64,000 nt of DNA from Celeribacter neptunius (GTDB lineage Bacteria; Pseudomonadota; Alphaproteobacteria; Rhodobacterales; Rhodobacteraceae), in assembly GCF_900113955.1 (NCBI RefSeq), contig NZ_FORH01000007.1, forward strand, positions 62,001 to 126,000, read 5' to 3'. Positions within the stretch are counted from its first letter, which is position 1; every line of letters begins with the position of its first letter. A program made the position numbers and the translations under genes. Below are positions 29,276-34,920 of the stretch, piece by piece. The notes beneath the pieces are model-generated. The model had not been told where the DNA came from. It searched no databases and saw only the letters and a list, made by a program, of their open reading frames with translations.

Positions 29276-29389
29276 TTTATTGGCTCCTGAGCGGGCGTTT
29301 CCATCCAAACAATATTGACGCAACGCGGCATGTTCAATAGGAACCGGGCTTTGCGGGATGGACCCGTGCGAGATAAGGATTCCTTGATC

Positions 29390-31033
29390 ATGACTGACCT
29401 GCGTGACGCTGGTATGAGCTCTAAAGCCTGGCCTTTTGATGAGGCAAGGAAAGTTCTCAAACGCTATGAGCAGTCCAAGGACAAGAAGGGCTATGTGCTC
29501 TTCGAGACCGGGTATGGCCCCTCGGGCCTGCCGCATATCGGCACCTTTGGCGAGGTGCTGCGCACGACGATGATCCGCCGCGCCTTCGAGGTGATCTCTG
29601 ACATTCCGACGCGTCTGATCTGTTTCTCGGACGATATGGACGGGATGCGCAAGATCCCCGGCAATGTGCCCAATCAGGAGCGCCTGAAAGAGGACATCCA
29701 GAAGCCGCTGACCAGCGTGTTCGACCCGTTCGAGGAATTCGAGAGCTTCGGCGCGCATAACAACGCCATGCTGCGTCGCTTCCTCGACACGTTCGGCTTC
29801 GAATATGAATTCTATTCGGCGACCGAGTTCTACAAATCGGGTCAGTTTGACGAGGTTCTGAAACGCGCCGTCGAGAAATACGACGATGTGATGAAGGTCA
29901 TGCTCAAGAGCCTGCGCGAAGAGCGCGCCGCGACCTATTCGATCTTCCTGCCGATCCACCCGGAAACCGGTCGCGTGCTCTACGTGCCGATGAAATCGGT
30001 CAACAAGGATGATTACACCATCACCTTCGATGACGAAGACGGCCGCGAATGGACCCTGCCGGTCACCGGCGGCAATGTGAAATTGCAATGGAAACCCGAC
30101 TTCGGCGCGCGCTGGGCGGCGCTTGGCGTGGATTTCGAGATGTATGGCAAGGACCACTCGACCAACACGCCGATCTACGACCGGATCTGTGAGATTTTGG
30201 GCGGCAAGAAGCCGGAGCATTTCACCTATGAGCTGTTCCTCGACGCGCAGGGCCAGAAGATTTCCAAGTCGTCCGGCAACGGTCTGTCGATCGACGAATG
30301 GCTGACCTATGCCTCGACGGAGAGCCTCAGCTATTTCATGTATCAAAAGCCGAAAACGGCGAAGCGGATGCATTTCGATGTGATCCCGCGGGCGATGGAT
30401 GAGTACCACCAGCAGCTGCGCGCCTATCCGAAACAGGACGCGACGCAAAAGGCCAATAACCCGGTGTTCCACATCCATGGTCAGAATGTGCCGGCCTCCG
30501 ACATGGTCGTGCCCTTCACCATGCTGTTGAACCTGGCCTCTGTCGCCGGCGCCGAGGACAAGGATCAGCTTTGGGGGTTCATCCAGCGTTACGCGCCGGA
30601 CGCCAGCCCGGAGCACAATCCGCAGCTCGACGCCGCCGCCGGCTATGCCGTGCGCTATTACAATGACTTCGTGAAGCCGGAGAAGACCTTCCGTGCGCCC
30701 TCTGCCGAAGAGCGCGCCGCGATGGAAGATCTCAAGGCGGCCTTTGGTTCCGCCGAGCTGGCGCTCGCCGAAATCGCCAAAAAGAACGAAGCCGCCGGTT
30801 CCGACGAGGCGCTGCCGGAGGCGGATTTCACCGACGGCGATTTCCTGCAATCGATCGTCTTCGCGGTCGGCAAGAACCACGGGTTCGAGAATCTGCGCGA
30901 CTGGTTCAAGGCGCTTTACGAAGTGCTTCTGGGGCAGAGCCAGGGCCCGCGGTTCGGCTCCTTTGCGGCGCTCTACGGGGTGAACGAGACCATCGCGCTT
31001 CTGGACAAAGGGCTGGCGGGCGAGCTGTCCTGA
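29390..31033 (+). CDS. lysS: Lysyl-tRNA synthetase, class I
   Basis: A 547-aa class I LysRS, the archaeal-type enzyme that replaces the usual class II LysRS in many Alphaproteobacteria. The HIGH motif is HIGT in [13 protein letters not shown] (about residue 49), and the KMSKS equivalent is KISKS (about residue 297). The C-terminal alpha-helix-cage anticodon-binding region runs from about 350. The ATG at 29390 has AAGGAT upstream; an earlier in-frame start at 29315 would add 25 residues absent from the family. It ends at a strong terminator. Confidence 0.93.
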
Positions 31034-31058
31034 GTTTTGTGAAAGGCGAAATGATTTG

Positions 31059-31083
31059 GGCGGTCCCTCGGGGCCGCCTTTTT
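31059..31083 (+). terminator. Intrinsic terminator of lysS
   Basis: An 8-bp stem with one G-U pair (GGCGGTCC at 31059-31066, GGGCCGCC at 31071-31078), a 4-nt loop and a TTTTT tail, about 25 nt past the lysS stop. Confidence 0.9.
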
Positions 31084-31145
31084 CATTGGCCTGCACTGGA
31101 TTGCGTGATCATGTCGGGCATGGGGTCAATCAGATGGAGGCCGGG

Positions 31146-31541
31146 ATGGGAACTGTGCTTGGGAGAGTGTTGATTTACACCGATAAGATCGACGAGATGA
31201 CCGGATTTTACGCGCGGTATTTCGGCTATGCGATCTATCGCTCAAAGACCGATCCGATCGTCGAACTGCGGTCCCGGGCGGAGGGGATGACGCTTCTGCT
31301 GCACCCGCTGCGGCCGGGACAGGACGAGGGGCAATCCCAGGTCAAACTGGTGTTCGATGTCGAGGATGTCGCCGGGTTTTGCGCCTCTGCGAAGGCCGAC
31401 GGGCTGGATTTCGGCGAGATCATCCGCATGGAGGGCTGCGCCTTCGCCAATGTGCGGGACCCGGCGGGGCATACGATTCAGGTGTCGGACCGGGTCTTTG
31501 CCCAGTCGCAGCGGGGGCAGGGCGATTACCGGCCCGGATGA
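31146..31541 (+). CDS. VOC/glyoxalase-fold protein
   Basis: A 131-aa single vicinal-oxygen-chelate domain with two beta-alpha-beta modules (VLIYTDKIDEMTGFYARYFG, and VKLVFDVEDVAGFCASAKA). The last strand, ANVRDPAGHTIQVSDRV, resembles the DPxGHxI metal-site strand. Substrate unknown. GGAGG lies 5 nt before the ATG at 31146, which decides the start over the ATG at 31134. It is convergent with the CHAD gene, 9 nt away. Confidence 0.8.
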   Translation: MGTVLGRVLIYTDKIDEMTGFYARYFGYAIYRSKTDPIVELRSRAEGMTLLLHPLRPGQDEGQSQVKLVFDVEDVAGFCASAKADGLDFGEIIRMEGCAFANVRDPAGHTIQVSDRVFAQSQRGQGDYRPG

Positions 31542-32438: not shown

Positions 32439-32631
32439 GATGGGCAAAGCCTACGCCGATGTCGGTGAGGTGCCAATGATCTATTCGCCGCAGGGCGCGA
32501 AGTGTTGCGCCTGCGGGGGCGGCGCCGCACGGGGTGCTAACAGGGCCGTAAATCCGGGACGGTAAACCGGGTCCATCTCGGGGCAGATGCGCGCTGACAT
32601 TGGCGTCGATCGATGGATGAAAGGGGCTCGT

Positions 32632-34920
32632 ATGAACAAGGCCATCACTGACGGGCTGGCGCTGATGCCGCCGGCCTTTGCGCAGGGGCTGGATGTCTGG
32701 TCCAGCGAGGACGGAACACCGGGCTCCGCGACCTATGACGGGGCGGCGAACGCGGCCTTTGTCGCGGCGGATGCGGATTTCGGCGGCTGTCTCGAACTGG
32801 TCAAGACCACGATGACGACCAGGCTGCGCTACATGGGCGAGACGCCTTTGCAGCCGGGGATGTATTTGCAGATCACCGCGCGGGTGAAGGCCATCTCCGG
32901 CAATCTGCCCTCGGTGCGGATCGCCGGCTGGGCCGGCAACGGCGCGTTCAATCACGTGGGCGGGCTGACCGAGCTGGGCGCCTCGGTGGCGCTCGACAGC
33001 TACGGCGAGGTGGTCGAGGTCTCGGCCATCGTCGGGTCGGGCGCGCGCGGTGGCGTCGACATGCCCTGGGGGCTCGCGCCGGTCTATGGCCATTTCGGTC
33101 TCGATCTCACCGGCTTGAACGGCGGCACGGTGCGGATCGACGACATCCGGATCGAGGATGTTTCGGGCTGGTATCTCGGCGACAGCAGCGGTGTCATCGA
33201 TGTGCGCGACTATGGCGCCGTGGGGGACGGGGTGACGGATTGCACCAACGCCTTCGATGCCGCCAATGACGCCGCGAACGGGCGTCGTATCCTGGTCCCC
33301 GAAGGGGTGTACAAGCTCACCGATACGGTGTCGTTTACCACCGAGGTGACATTCGACGGCACGGTGAGCCTGCCGGCGAATGAGCGGCTGGTGCTGCGCA
33401 ACAATTTCCACCTCGACGCCTATATCGATGCGTTCGGCGATGAGGTCGAAGGGTTCAAACGCGCGATTCAGGCGATGTTCCAATATACCGACCATGACAG
33501 TCTCGACATGCGGGGGCGGCGGATCGAGCTTTACGGCCCGCTGGATATTGCCGCGATCGCCGGCAAGGACACGCTCGAGGTGCGCCGGGTGATCCGCAAC
33601 GGTCAGATCAACGTGCAGGCCTCGAGCGATTGGAATACCGAGACCGCGACGTCGCAGGCCAGCTACAGCCCGGCCAGCCCGCGCAAGCTTTCCAATGTCG
33701 CCAATGCCGCCAATATTCCCGTCGGCAGTCTGGTCACCGGCAAGGGGGTCGGGCGCGAGGTCTATGTCACCTCGGTCAATATCGGCAATCAGACGATCGA
33801 CCTGAGCCAGCCGCTTTTCGGGCCCGACGCGACCCAGAGCTACACGTTCACGCGGTTCAAATATGTGCTCGATTTCTCGGGCCTGTCGAAACTCTCGCAA
33901 TTCAGCCTGTTGGAGATGGAATTTCTCTGCAACAGCCGCGCCTCGGCGGTGATGCTGGCGCCCTCGGGAAATAATTTCCATATCCGGGACTGCCATTTCA
34001 AATCGCCGCTCAACCGCGGGGTGAGTTCCTTGGGCGAGGGCTGTCAGGATCTGCATATCGACCGCTGTTCCTTTGTCTCGAACGAACAGAGCGTGCCGGC
34101 GGAGGACCGGCAATCGATCGCCTTCAACGTCAACGCCAATGACACCAAGATCCGCGACAACGTGTTCCAGAAATTCGGCCATACCGGGATCTGCTATGGC
34201 AATGGGCATATTTTTGTCGGCAATCACTGGTATCAGGGCGACAGTGTGGCCGACAGCCCGCGCATGGCGGGGCTGGTTTTGACCTATCCCAATGTCAAAT
34301 CCATCATCACCGGAAATTACATCGACAATTCCTTTATCGAGATGACCAACGAGCATGACGCGCGACCGGATTTCTCCTCGGAATATTCCTTTGGCGGGCT
34401 GACCGTCACCGGCAATATCTTCACCGTCAACGATGCGGCGCGCTGGTTCTCCTGGATCGTGGTCAAACCCTATGGGCCGGGCCATTTCATTCAGGGGCTT
34501 TCGGTCCAGAACAACACGTTCAAATCCCTGAACGGGATCACCGACCGGGTGGAGACGGTGGACACGACCTATGCCGATCTCAGCTATAACCTGATGCGCA
34601 ACATCACCTTCGAGGGCAATACGTTCAACGGCATCGGGCAGGTCACGGTCAACCCGGTGTCGCTGGAGTTTTCCCAGAGTACGGCGTCGAACAACTGGGT
34701 GCTCGACCCGTCGGGCTACCTGCCGTTCGGCGGCCAGGCGCGGGTGGTGGAGAGCCTGGTGTTCCGCAATGCCATGACCAATGGCTCCGGCTCGACCGTC
34801 TATCACCGGCCCTATGTGACGGTGAATTACGGGGCGTCGGCGAACCAGCTGCGCCTGACCTTTCCCGAGGCGGTGAAAGGCACGGTCAATGTGGTGACGC
34901 GGATGGACAAGCCGATCTGA
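32632..34920 (+). CDS. Right-handed beta-helix protein, pectate-lyase-like/tailspike-like
   Basis: A 762-aa protein. Residues 1-185 form an N-terminal module (ITDGLALMPPAFAQGLDVW) of jelly-roll or head-binding character. Residues about 190-230 match the Pectate_lyase_3 start (DVRDYGAVGDGVTDCTNAF, then ILVPEGVYKL). The rest is a parallel beta-helix rich in asparagine turns (GNNFHIRDCHF, ITGNYIDNSF, VQNNTFKSL). There is no signal peptide. That combination, cytoplasmic synthesis plus an N-terminal adaptor and a beta-helix, is typical of phage tailspikes. Rhodobacterales gene transfer agents use separately encoded spike/fibre proteins, so this may be one. AAAGGGG precedes the ATG. An enzymatic polysaccharide lyase is the alternative. 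Confidence 0.75.
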   Translation: MNKAITDGLALMPPAFAQGLDVWSSEDGTPGSATYDGAANAAFVAADADFGGCLELVKTTMTTRLRYMGETPLQPGMYLQITARVKAISGNLPSVRIAGWAGNGAFNHVGGLTELGASVALDSYGEVVEVSAIVGSGARGGVDMPWGLAPVYGHFGLDLTGLNGGTVRIDDIRIEDVSGWYLGDSSGVIDVRDYGAVGDGVTDCTNAFDAANDAANGRRILVPEGVYKLTDTVSFTTEVTFDGTVSLPANERLVLRNNFHLDAYIDAFGDEVEGFKRAIQAMFQYTDHDSLDMRGRRIELYGPLDIAAIAGKDTLEVRRVIRNGQINVQASSDWNTETATSQASYSPASPRKLSNVANAANIPVGSLVTGKGVGREVYVTSVNIGNQTIDLSQPLFGPDATQSYTFTRFKYVLDFSGLSKLSQFSLLEMEFLCNSRASAVMLAPSGNNFHIRDCHFKSPLNRGVSSLGEGCQDLHIDRCSFVSNEQSVPAEDRQSIAFNVNANDTKIRDNVFQKFGHTGICYGNGHIFVGNHWYQGDSVADSPRMAGLVLTYPNVKSIITGNYIDNSFIEMTNEHDARPDFSSEYSFGGLTVTGNIFTVNDAARWFSWIVVKPYGPGHFIQGLSVQNNTFKSLNGITDRVETVDTTYADLSYNLMRNITFEGNTFNGIGQVTVNPVSLEFSQSTASNNWVLDPSGYLPFGGQARVVESLVFRNAMTNGSGSTVYHRPYVTVNYGASANQLRLTFPEAVKGTVNVVTRMDKPI

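Follow-up and report, generated by a model that had tools for sequence, protein, structure and literature searches.

The tspA gene and its product

The window analysed here is a stretch of 64,000 nucleotides from Celeribacter neptunius (NCBI RefSeq assembly GCF_900113955.1, contig NZ_FORH01000007.1, positions 62,001 to 126,000), and its positions 32632..34920 hold an open reading frame that is very probably the orthologue of tspA, the gene for the detachable tailspike and biofilm depolymerase of Rhodobacterales gene transfer agents (GTAs). All features given below in window coordinates lie on the forward (+) strand. The frame starts with ATG at 32632, its stop codon ends at 34920 and its product (MNKAITDGL...) has 762 residues, exactly as the initial annotation had placed it. 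We aligned 41 sequences, the window protein and 40 homologues, leaving out disrupted copies and most duplicates from one genome; the corresponding ATG was common to all 41 together with an MN start and Thr at position 6, so the start of the window frame can be considered fixed. Many of the aligned sequences also have a GAAAGGG-like ribosome site directly 5' of this ATG, and none of the 41 begins, as judged by eye, with a segment resembling a signal peptide. In the window, the ribosome binding site GAAAGGGG and its spacer (32619..32631) form a block that is near-invariant in 18 members of the genus. Further upstream, a block of the form TAAC...GTAAA...CCATCTCGGGG (32536..32583, limits approximate) is partly conserved among 18 aligned upstream regions of the genus; it may be a promoter or a region for the GTA activator GafA, and no shared GafA motif 5' of tspA could be named in this alignment.

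TspA (Rcc02623) was described in a bioRxiv preprint of 20 July 2026 as the homotrimeric tailspike of RcGTA, the GTA of Rhodobacter capsulatus (PMC13420450). According to this report, TspA rises about 1000-fold together with the GTA on induction, GafA binds to the promoter region of its gene, and trimers are seen by cryo-electron microscopy loosely attached to the RcGTA baseplate. The protein degrades biofilm in a calcium-dependent manner; His533 and Asp566 are essential, and Asp505 shares an inter-subunit cleft with these two residues. The gene is conserved in Rhodobacterales beside lysS, and no phage homologue was found beyond a short cap region (PMC13420450). We recognised the R. capsulatus genome by its capsid, which agrees with the Rcc01687 chain of the PDB at every one of the 386 residues of that chain. 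The tspA product of this genome is 763 aa long and carries the residue named in the preprint at each of 19 checked positions. The window protein is 54.2% identical to this TspA over 762 aligned residues, end to end. Because of this identity and of the catalytic Asp/His/Asp, which is kept here and almost throughout the family, its membership of the TspA family is well supported. The two proteins also share their length (762 vs 763 aa), their domain order, a place near lysS, the lack of a signal-peptide-like start and a gafA gene in the genome, whereas they differ at the calcium ligand Asp299, which is Glu in the window protein, and in the GTA virion cluster, which is internally deleted in the C. 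neptunius genome. From this orthology, the same enzymatic activity would be expected of the window protein.

The limits of four of the five domains were transferred from the R. capsulatus structure (PMC13420450) by alignment and viewed on an AlphaFold2 model. The N-terminal beta-sandwich (residues 1-180, 32632..33171) is strand-rich in the model and 63.9% identical to the R. capsulatus domain; the initial annotation had called it adaptor-like, but in the published structure it is a beta-sandwich resembling a carbohydrate module. Its loop 26-36, EDGTPGSATYD in the window protein, is the contact with the megatron protein in RcGTA (PMC13420450). Next comes the first part of the beta-helix (residues 181-335, 33172..33636), placed by Pfam, alignment and model, whose cap contains the pectate-lyase-like start that had been noted from the sequence (PF12708, also called Pectate_lyase_3; residues 189-244, E 8.7e-9); a Pfam beta-helix match was sub-threshold. 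An insertion domain (residues 336-410, 33637..33861) separates it from the second part of the beta-helix with the active site (residues 411-673, 33862..34650), and a C-terminal beta domain follows (residues 674-762, 34651..34917), which in RcGTA makes trimer contacts and a tail-tube contact (PMC13420450).

Conservation was counted over 175 full-length loci with 158 distinct sequences, leaving out partial loci and two with an early in-frame stop (L006, L060). The codon of Asp504 (34141..34143), which corresponds to Asp505 of the R. capsulatus inter-subunit cleft, encodes Asp in 157 of the 158 distinct sequences, and His532 (34225..34227) and Asp565 (34324..34326), the counterparts of the mutationally essential His533 and Asp566 (PMC13420450), are each kept in 158/158. 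Six of the seven calcium ligands (E271, D287, R297, D299, D542, D602, N635) are identical in the window protein, the seventh being the Asp-to-Glu change mentioned above; in R. capsulatus numbering, position 299 is Asp in 27 of the 158 sequences. We also observed that Glu377 and Glu575 (R. capsulatus numbering) are invariant (158/158). These residues were deemed non-catalytic on the basis of unstable mutants (PMC13420450), and in view of their invariance the intra-subunit cleft deserves another look.

The AlphaFold2 monomer model, calculated with the family alignment (mean pLDDT 91.7, pTM 0.75), consists of a strand-rich N-terminal domain, the long beta-helical stretch that the initial annotation had anticipated, and a C-terminal beta domain. 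This prediction fits the TspA order of beta-sandwich, beta-helix with insertion and C-terminal barrel. By Foldseek E-value, its best PDB fold matches were a Klebsiella phage depolymerase and the HK620 and Sf6 tailspikes (2vji, E 1.1e-9; 2vbk, E 9.0e-9), followed by GH87 alpha-1,3-glucanases and others. The HK620 and Sf6 tailspikes share the right-handed beta-helix tailspike fold, and the inter-subunit active site of Sf6 has been compared with that of TspA (PMC13420450); however, they are only 11-12% identical to the window protein with low whole-chain TM-scores (0.16-0.29), and phage tailspikes carry an N-terminal baseplate anchor (PMC13420450). The GH87 glucanase of Streptomyces thermodiastaticus (7c7d) is reported as a relative in fold of TspA, nearest for the N-terminal domain (PMC13420450); it is among the fold matches of the window protein but has 12% identity and no part in a GTA. 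Short CBM16 fold matches stood lower in the ranking and presumably lie in the modelled N-terminal beta-sandwich. At the sequence level, 15 PHROG matches were obtained, many of them to tail spikes, with their best stretches all within residues 176-258; since these and the better PDB sequence matches are confined to the cap region, they say little about function.

Neighbourhood, distribution and alternative origins

Five neighbouring genes of the window were scanned, and they encode a lysS-type tRNA synthetase, a CHAD protein, a PNPOx-like protein, a response regulator and a rhodanese. None of the five matched a phage family above the cut-off, consistent with the statement that no phage genes surround the frame, and none was a transporter or carbohydrate enzyme. 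The lysS-type gene (29315-31033) lies upstream on the same strand as tspA, with an open reading frame (31056-31541) and the CHAD gene between them, and relatives of the window locus have the same bacterial neighbours around tspA. Of 57 named loci with 6-kb flanks on both sides, drawn from the best 80 scan hits, 50 have lysS upstream in the same orientation and 52 have lysS or uvrB nearby; nadD and dacB were near tspA in many loci with longer flanks. The family was detected in 153 of 198 sampled family genomes including that of the window (E <= 1e-10), and therefore the frame is not a chance one. Among the matches listed, most were full length at 41-67% identity, and the closest named relative was Celeribacter naphthalenivorans (78%).

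We considered whether the gene came from a phage, as cargo or as the tailspike of a decayed prophage, because of the tailspike-like fold, the PHROG tail-spike matches to the cap region and the presence of the family on two IMG/VR contigs found by a pattern scan. Both contigs, however, begin with tspA as a host gene followed by an integrated island, and tblastn at 1e-5 gave no match in 50,697 phage records, nor was there a match at 1e-5 in 72,556 plasmid records. The window genome has a single match to the window protein, and the place of the gene is conserved in most loci examined. A phage origin was therefore rejected as extremely improbable on account of the missing phage and plasmid matches and the shared bacterial neighbours; tspA looks like a vertically kept chromosomal gene rather than a remnant of a prophage.

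The initial annotation had also related the gene to the tail fibre of RcGTA, Rcc00171, which like TspA is a glycan-directed, glycan-binding GTA protein whose gene in R. capsulatus lies apart from the main cluster. Rcc00171 is, however, a protein of 371 residues with rod, knob and foot and a DUF2793 N-terminus, differing from TspA in size, domains and genomic place. The window protein has no DUF2793 match, and the C. neptunius genome has its own DUF2793 gene behind the GTA cluster (L136:4-717, by Pfam). Homology to the fibre is thus refuted by sequence, and we give this relationship virtually no chance.

Another possibility is that the protein is a nutritional exo-enzyme, a secreted pectate-lyase-like hydrolase for algal or plant polysaccharide, as its homologue in Ruegeria pomeroyi is annotated. 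The PF12708 start would fit such a role, and SPO0459 (YP_165722, "pectate lyase") of R. pomeroyi, a probable homologue, is in co-culture the most abundant of the hydrolase-like exoproteins; PMC5839243 calls it a possible pectate lyase and terms this annotation only suggested. SPO0459 is an extracellular protein with a pectate-lyase-like domain, and an earlier paper describes this "pectin hydrolase" as highly conserved in the Roseobacter clade (PMC5839243, PMC4949626). It was read there as a nutritional hydrolase, whereas we assign it to the tspA family by inference from its domain, its clade-wide conservation and the accession order (YP_165719 is SPO0456; PMC4334477). Against the nutritional reading, no signal-like start was seen by eye in any of the 41 aligned sequences, a check that does not extend to other export routes; the five scanned neighbours include no transporter or carbohydrate enzyme; the place near lysS or uvrB is conserved; and the protein is orthologous to TspA including its mutated active site. 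For these reasons of start, neighbours and orthology we rejected the nutritional lyase and regard it as very unlikely.

If SPO0459 is tspA, its abundance could reflect GTA release. According to PMC5839243, its share of the R. pomeroyi exoproteome in artificial sea water from day 1 to day 100 was 4.94, 4.05, 3.23, 3.08, 0.04, 0.02, 0.08 and 1.63%, that is, a fall from 3.1-4.9% on days 1-14 to 0.02-0.08% on days 21-60, and GTA proteins went from 5-9% to 0.1-0.3% over the same days. The abundance of SPO0459 tracks that of GTA proteins in one of the two media, and we take this as a weak, independent hint for the TspA reading. The main texts of two other exoproteome papers (PMC2953401, PMC3933643) contain neither pectate nor GTA terms.

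The apparently interrupted GTA cluster of C. neptunius

The initial annotation had regarded a GTA cluster in the same genome as essential for its proposal. Such a cluster is present on another contig (C5, about 518-531 kb), but with a large internal deletion. Its order is terminase and portal, placed by the order of open reading frames, then g12, hub, NlpC/P60 peptidase, a megatron of 1313 residues and the DUF2793 gene, assigned by Pfam. At the capsid position (L135:12768-13997; G000:C5, about 522.8-524.0 kb) we found a single open frame in which approximately the first 216 capsid residues are joined to the C-terminal part of a tape-measure-like protein. Genome-wide, the GTA capsid query was matched over residues 29-234 only and never in full, and g9 gave no match. 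The C-terminal half of the capsid is thus missing, and by the layout of the cluster so are g6-g10 and the N-terminal part of g11; g6-g8 and g10 have no room in the cluster, and no genome-wide search was made for them. A second HK97-type capsid gene (G000:C5:1040393-1041286), 34% identical to the GTA capsid query, was also noticed and possibly belongs to a prophage.

Mapped onto three congeners that have both capsid and g9, the break points are separated by 3.13-3.15 kb; in one of these congeners (L192) the 8-bp word GCCGAGGC stands at both. A loss of about 3.1 kb by short-homology deletion is likelier than a misassembly, and the GTA of this genome is probably dead. The deletion makes GTA particles, and with them attachment of the spike, unlikely in the present strain. 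Of the 9 residues of the megatron loop that contacts TspA in RcGTA, 7 are conserved in this genome, and a gafA homologue was located by homology at G000:C5:1066551-1067696.

In GTA-competent relatives, TspA would act as reported for R. capsulatus: GafA would switch on the virion genes and tspA together, TspA, lacking a signal peptide, would accumulate in the cytoplasm of the induced cells, and lysis would release it as trimers on the GTA baseplate or as free trimers. The authors of PMC13420450 hypothesise that surplus TspA is perhaps freed by lysis as well. Outside the cell, the enzyme would cut biofilm polysaccharide at the inter-subunit clefts (Asp504, His532 and Asp565 in the window protein), with calcium holding the closed state, and so open the matrix. 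The target suggested by the initial annotation was the capsule, whereas the substrate shown is the biofilm matrix (PMC13420450); its proposal of a stand-alone GTA tailspike away from the main cluster is what the preprint reports for the R. capsulatus orthologue. None of the findings it had named as contrary was cleanly obtained, and the tailspike reading as a whole is supported. In the window strain, tspA may either still be driven by gafA and act as a free enzyme or be a relic; because the virion genes are partly deleted, the protein, if made, is most likely a free enzyme or a leftover.

tspA in GTA-less genomes

We examined 20 genomes of the genus: 16 combine g9 with a capsid matched over its full length, and the four others (the window genome, G220, G230 and G231) all have a full-length tspA. 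In G224, which has both markers and whose GTA capsid is matched in full, tspA lies in two pieces (L177/L176), and in an 85%-complete genome (G232) no tspA was found. Placed on the tspA tree, the four GTA-less genomes require four changes, of which at least two are forced by well-supported branches.

Across the 198 family genomes, 37 have neither a full capsid nor a strong match to GTA_TIM, the megatron marker, and 22 of these 37 carry tspA. In 19 of the 22 the match extends over residues 1-752 or more in a reading frame free of stops; the remaining three are G045, where tspA is split into two frames (L036), and G095 and G123 with two matches each. Where a full capsid match is missing, the catalytic triad is retained in all 27 distinct tspA proteins. 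This scoring treated seven genomes with the weakest capsid matches (2e-99 down) as lacking the capsid, and thirteen matches to GTA_TIM at about 1e-36 to 1e-46 as no match; the cut-offs were chosen after viewing the lists. Ignoring kinship, tspA was associated with GTA_TIM alone (143/173 vs 10/25 genomes, Fisher p = 1.6e-5) and with capsid plus strong GTA_TIM (120/149 vs 22/37, p = 0.0098), and less so with the capsid alone (120/150 vs 33/48, p = 0.12). Because kinship was not corrected for, we give the co-occurrence little weight and have set it aside as proof of function.

Several points weigh against the tailspike reading. The linkage to the GTA is loose in both directions, since 29 of the 149 genomes with capsid and megatron marker lack tspA and the 22 with neither marker have it. 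The C. neptunius cluster lacks the genes and gene parts described above; this incompleteness is not decisive against TspA membership, because so many genomes without either marker carry the gene. The calcium ligand Asp299 is Glu in the window protein, and most calcium sites are variable across the family. The functional data all stem from a single preprint, not peer-reviewed and chiefly on R. capsulatus; among the homologues assayed there, that of Tritonibacter mobilis was active and that of Phaeobacter gave no reproducible activity (PMC13420450). In R. pomeroyi, flagellar proteins show the same time course as SPO0459, and in natural sea water SPO0459 rises from 1.43 to 3.61% (PMC5839243). According to PMC4949626, three Roseobacters all show GTA proteins, and the sole exo-enzyme cluster found in all three is a nucleotidase.

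Another account of the C. neptunius gene is that the GTA died by deletion and tspA is a passenger not yet decayed, to which we assign a substantial chance, though one short of even. The fusion of the N-terminal half of the capsid to the tape-measure part and the missing g9 fit this account, and so do the pairwise ratios of nonsynonymous to synonymous substitution (dN/dS) between the window tspA and four relatives, which at 0.14-0.20 are at the upper end of the 45 pairs listed. These ratios, with dS near 1, do not decide whether selection on the window tspA has relaxed. Points against the passenger account are the full-length frame with intact catalytic residues, the triad kept in all distinct tspA of genomes that lack a full capsid match, and the low dN/dS (0.05-0.06) of the GTA-less congeners G230 and G231 to each other and to G228; G220 was higher (0.085-0.17).

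A more far-reaching alternative is that tspA and its activator gafA form a module outliving the GTA, with TspA kept as a free, lysis-released biofilm-dispersal enzyme for kin; we consider this conceivable but doubtful, and rate it below the passenger account. We searched for gafA in 77 chosen genomes, GTA-bearing and GTA-less, the latter excluding those without tspA, and found it in all 77, including the 22, the window genome and its three congeners. Some copies were partial: fragments in G220, G114 and G028, a stop in G003, G055 and G234, and two aligned pieces in G013, G018, G123, G234, G049, G110 and G117, which in G018, G049 and G110 lie within one open frame. Since gafA occurs in all genomes searched, GTA-bearing and GTA-less alike, its presence proves little, and it was rejected as a mark of a tspA module. 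A loss of baseplate-contact residues, as a mark of release from the particle, was likewise rejected: 22 GTA-less sequences did not differ from 131 others (loci of unexamined GTA status included) in loop 26-36, in the region 205-320 or in the C-terminal domain. Of six regions compared, only the insertion domain differed (p = 0.0185, uncorrected).

That TspA is a part of the GTA was already published in July 2026 (PMC13420450); here it was reached from sequence and the gene was counted across the family. The approximately 3.1-kb GTA deletion and the intact tspA of GTA-less genomes go beyond the text of PMC13420450 as far as it is available, in which tspA without a GTA is not discussed. If a spike module outlived its GTA, a tailspike would have become a public good without the particle. 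An intact spike without virion genes raises the question whether the enzyme pays for itself, and the retention of tspA bears on why costly GTA production persists.

We also observed that the end of tspA is used by integrated elements. In two genomes of the Rhodobacter sp. TJ_12 group (G209, L195; G203, L196), islands of about 9.8 and 10.9 kb are integrated at the final 20 bp of the gene (GGATGGACAATCCGAACTGA), and a second copy of this 20-bp sequence stands at the distal end of each; islands also occur at L053, L054 and L081. They carry integrase, terminase, portal and capsid genes; among the island open reading frames scanned (five in each, ten more in one) there was one head-tail adaptor and no tail gene. 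Capsid-coding, satellite-like elements thus seem to use the tspA end as an attachment site, and we take these islands to resemble capsid-forming phage satellites (cf-PICI).

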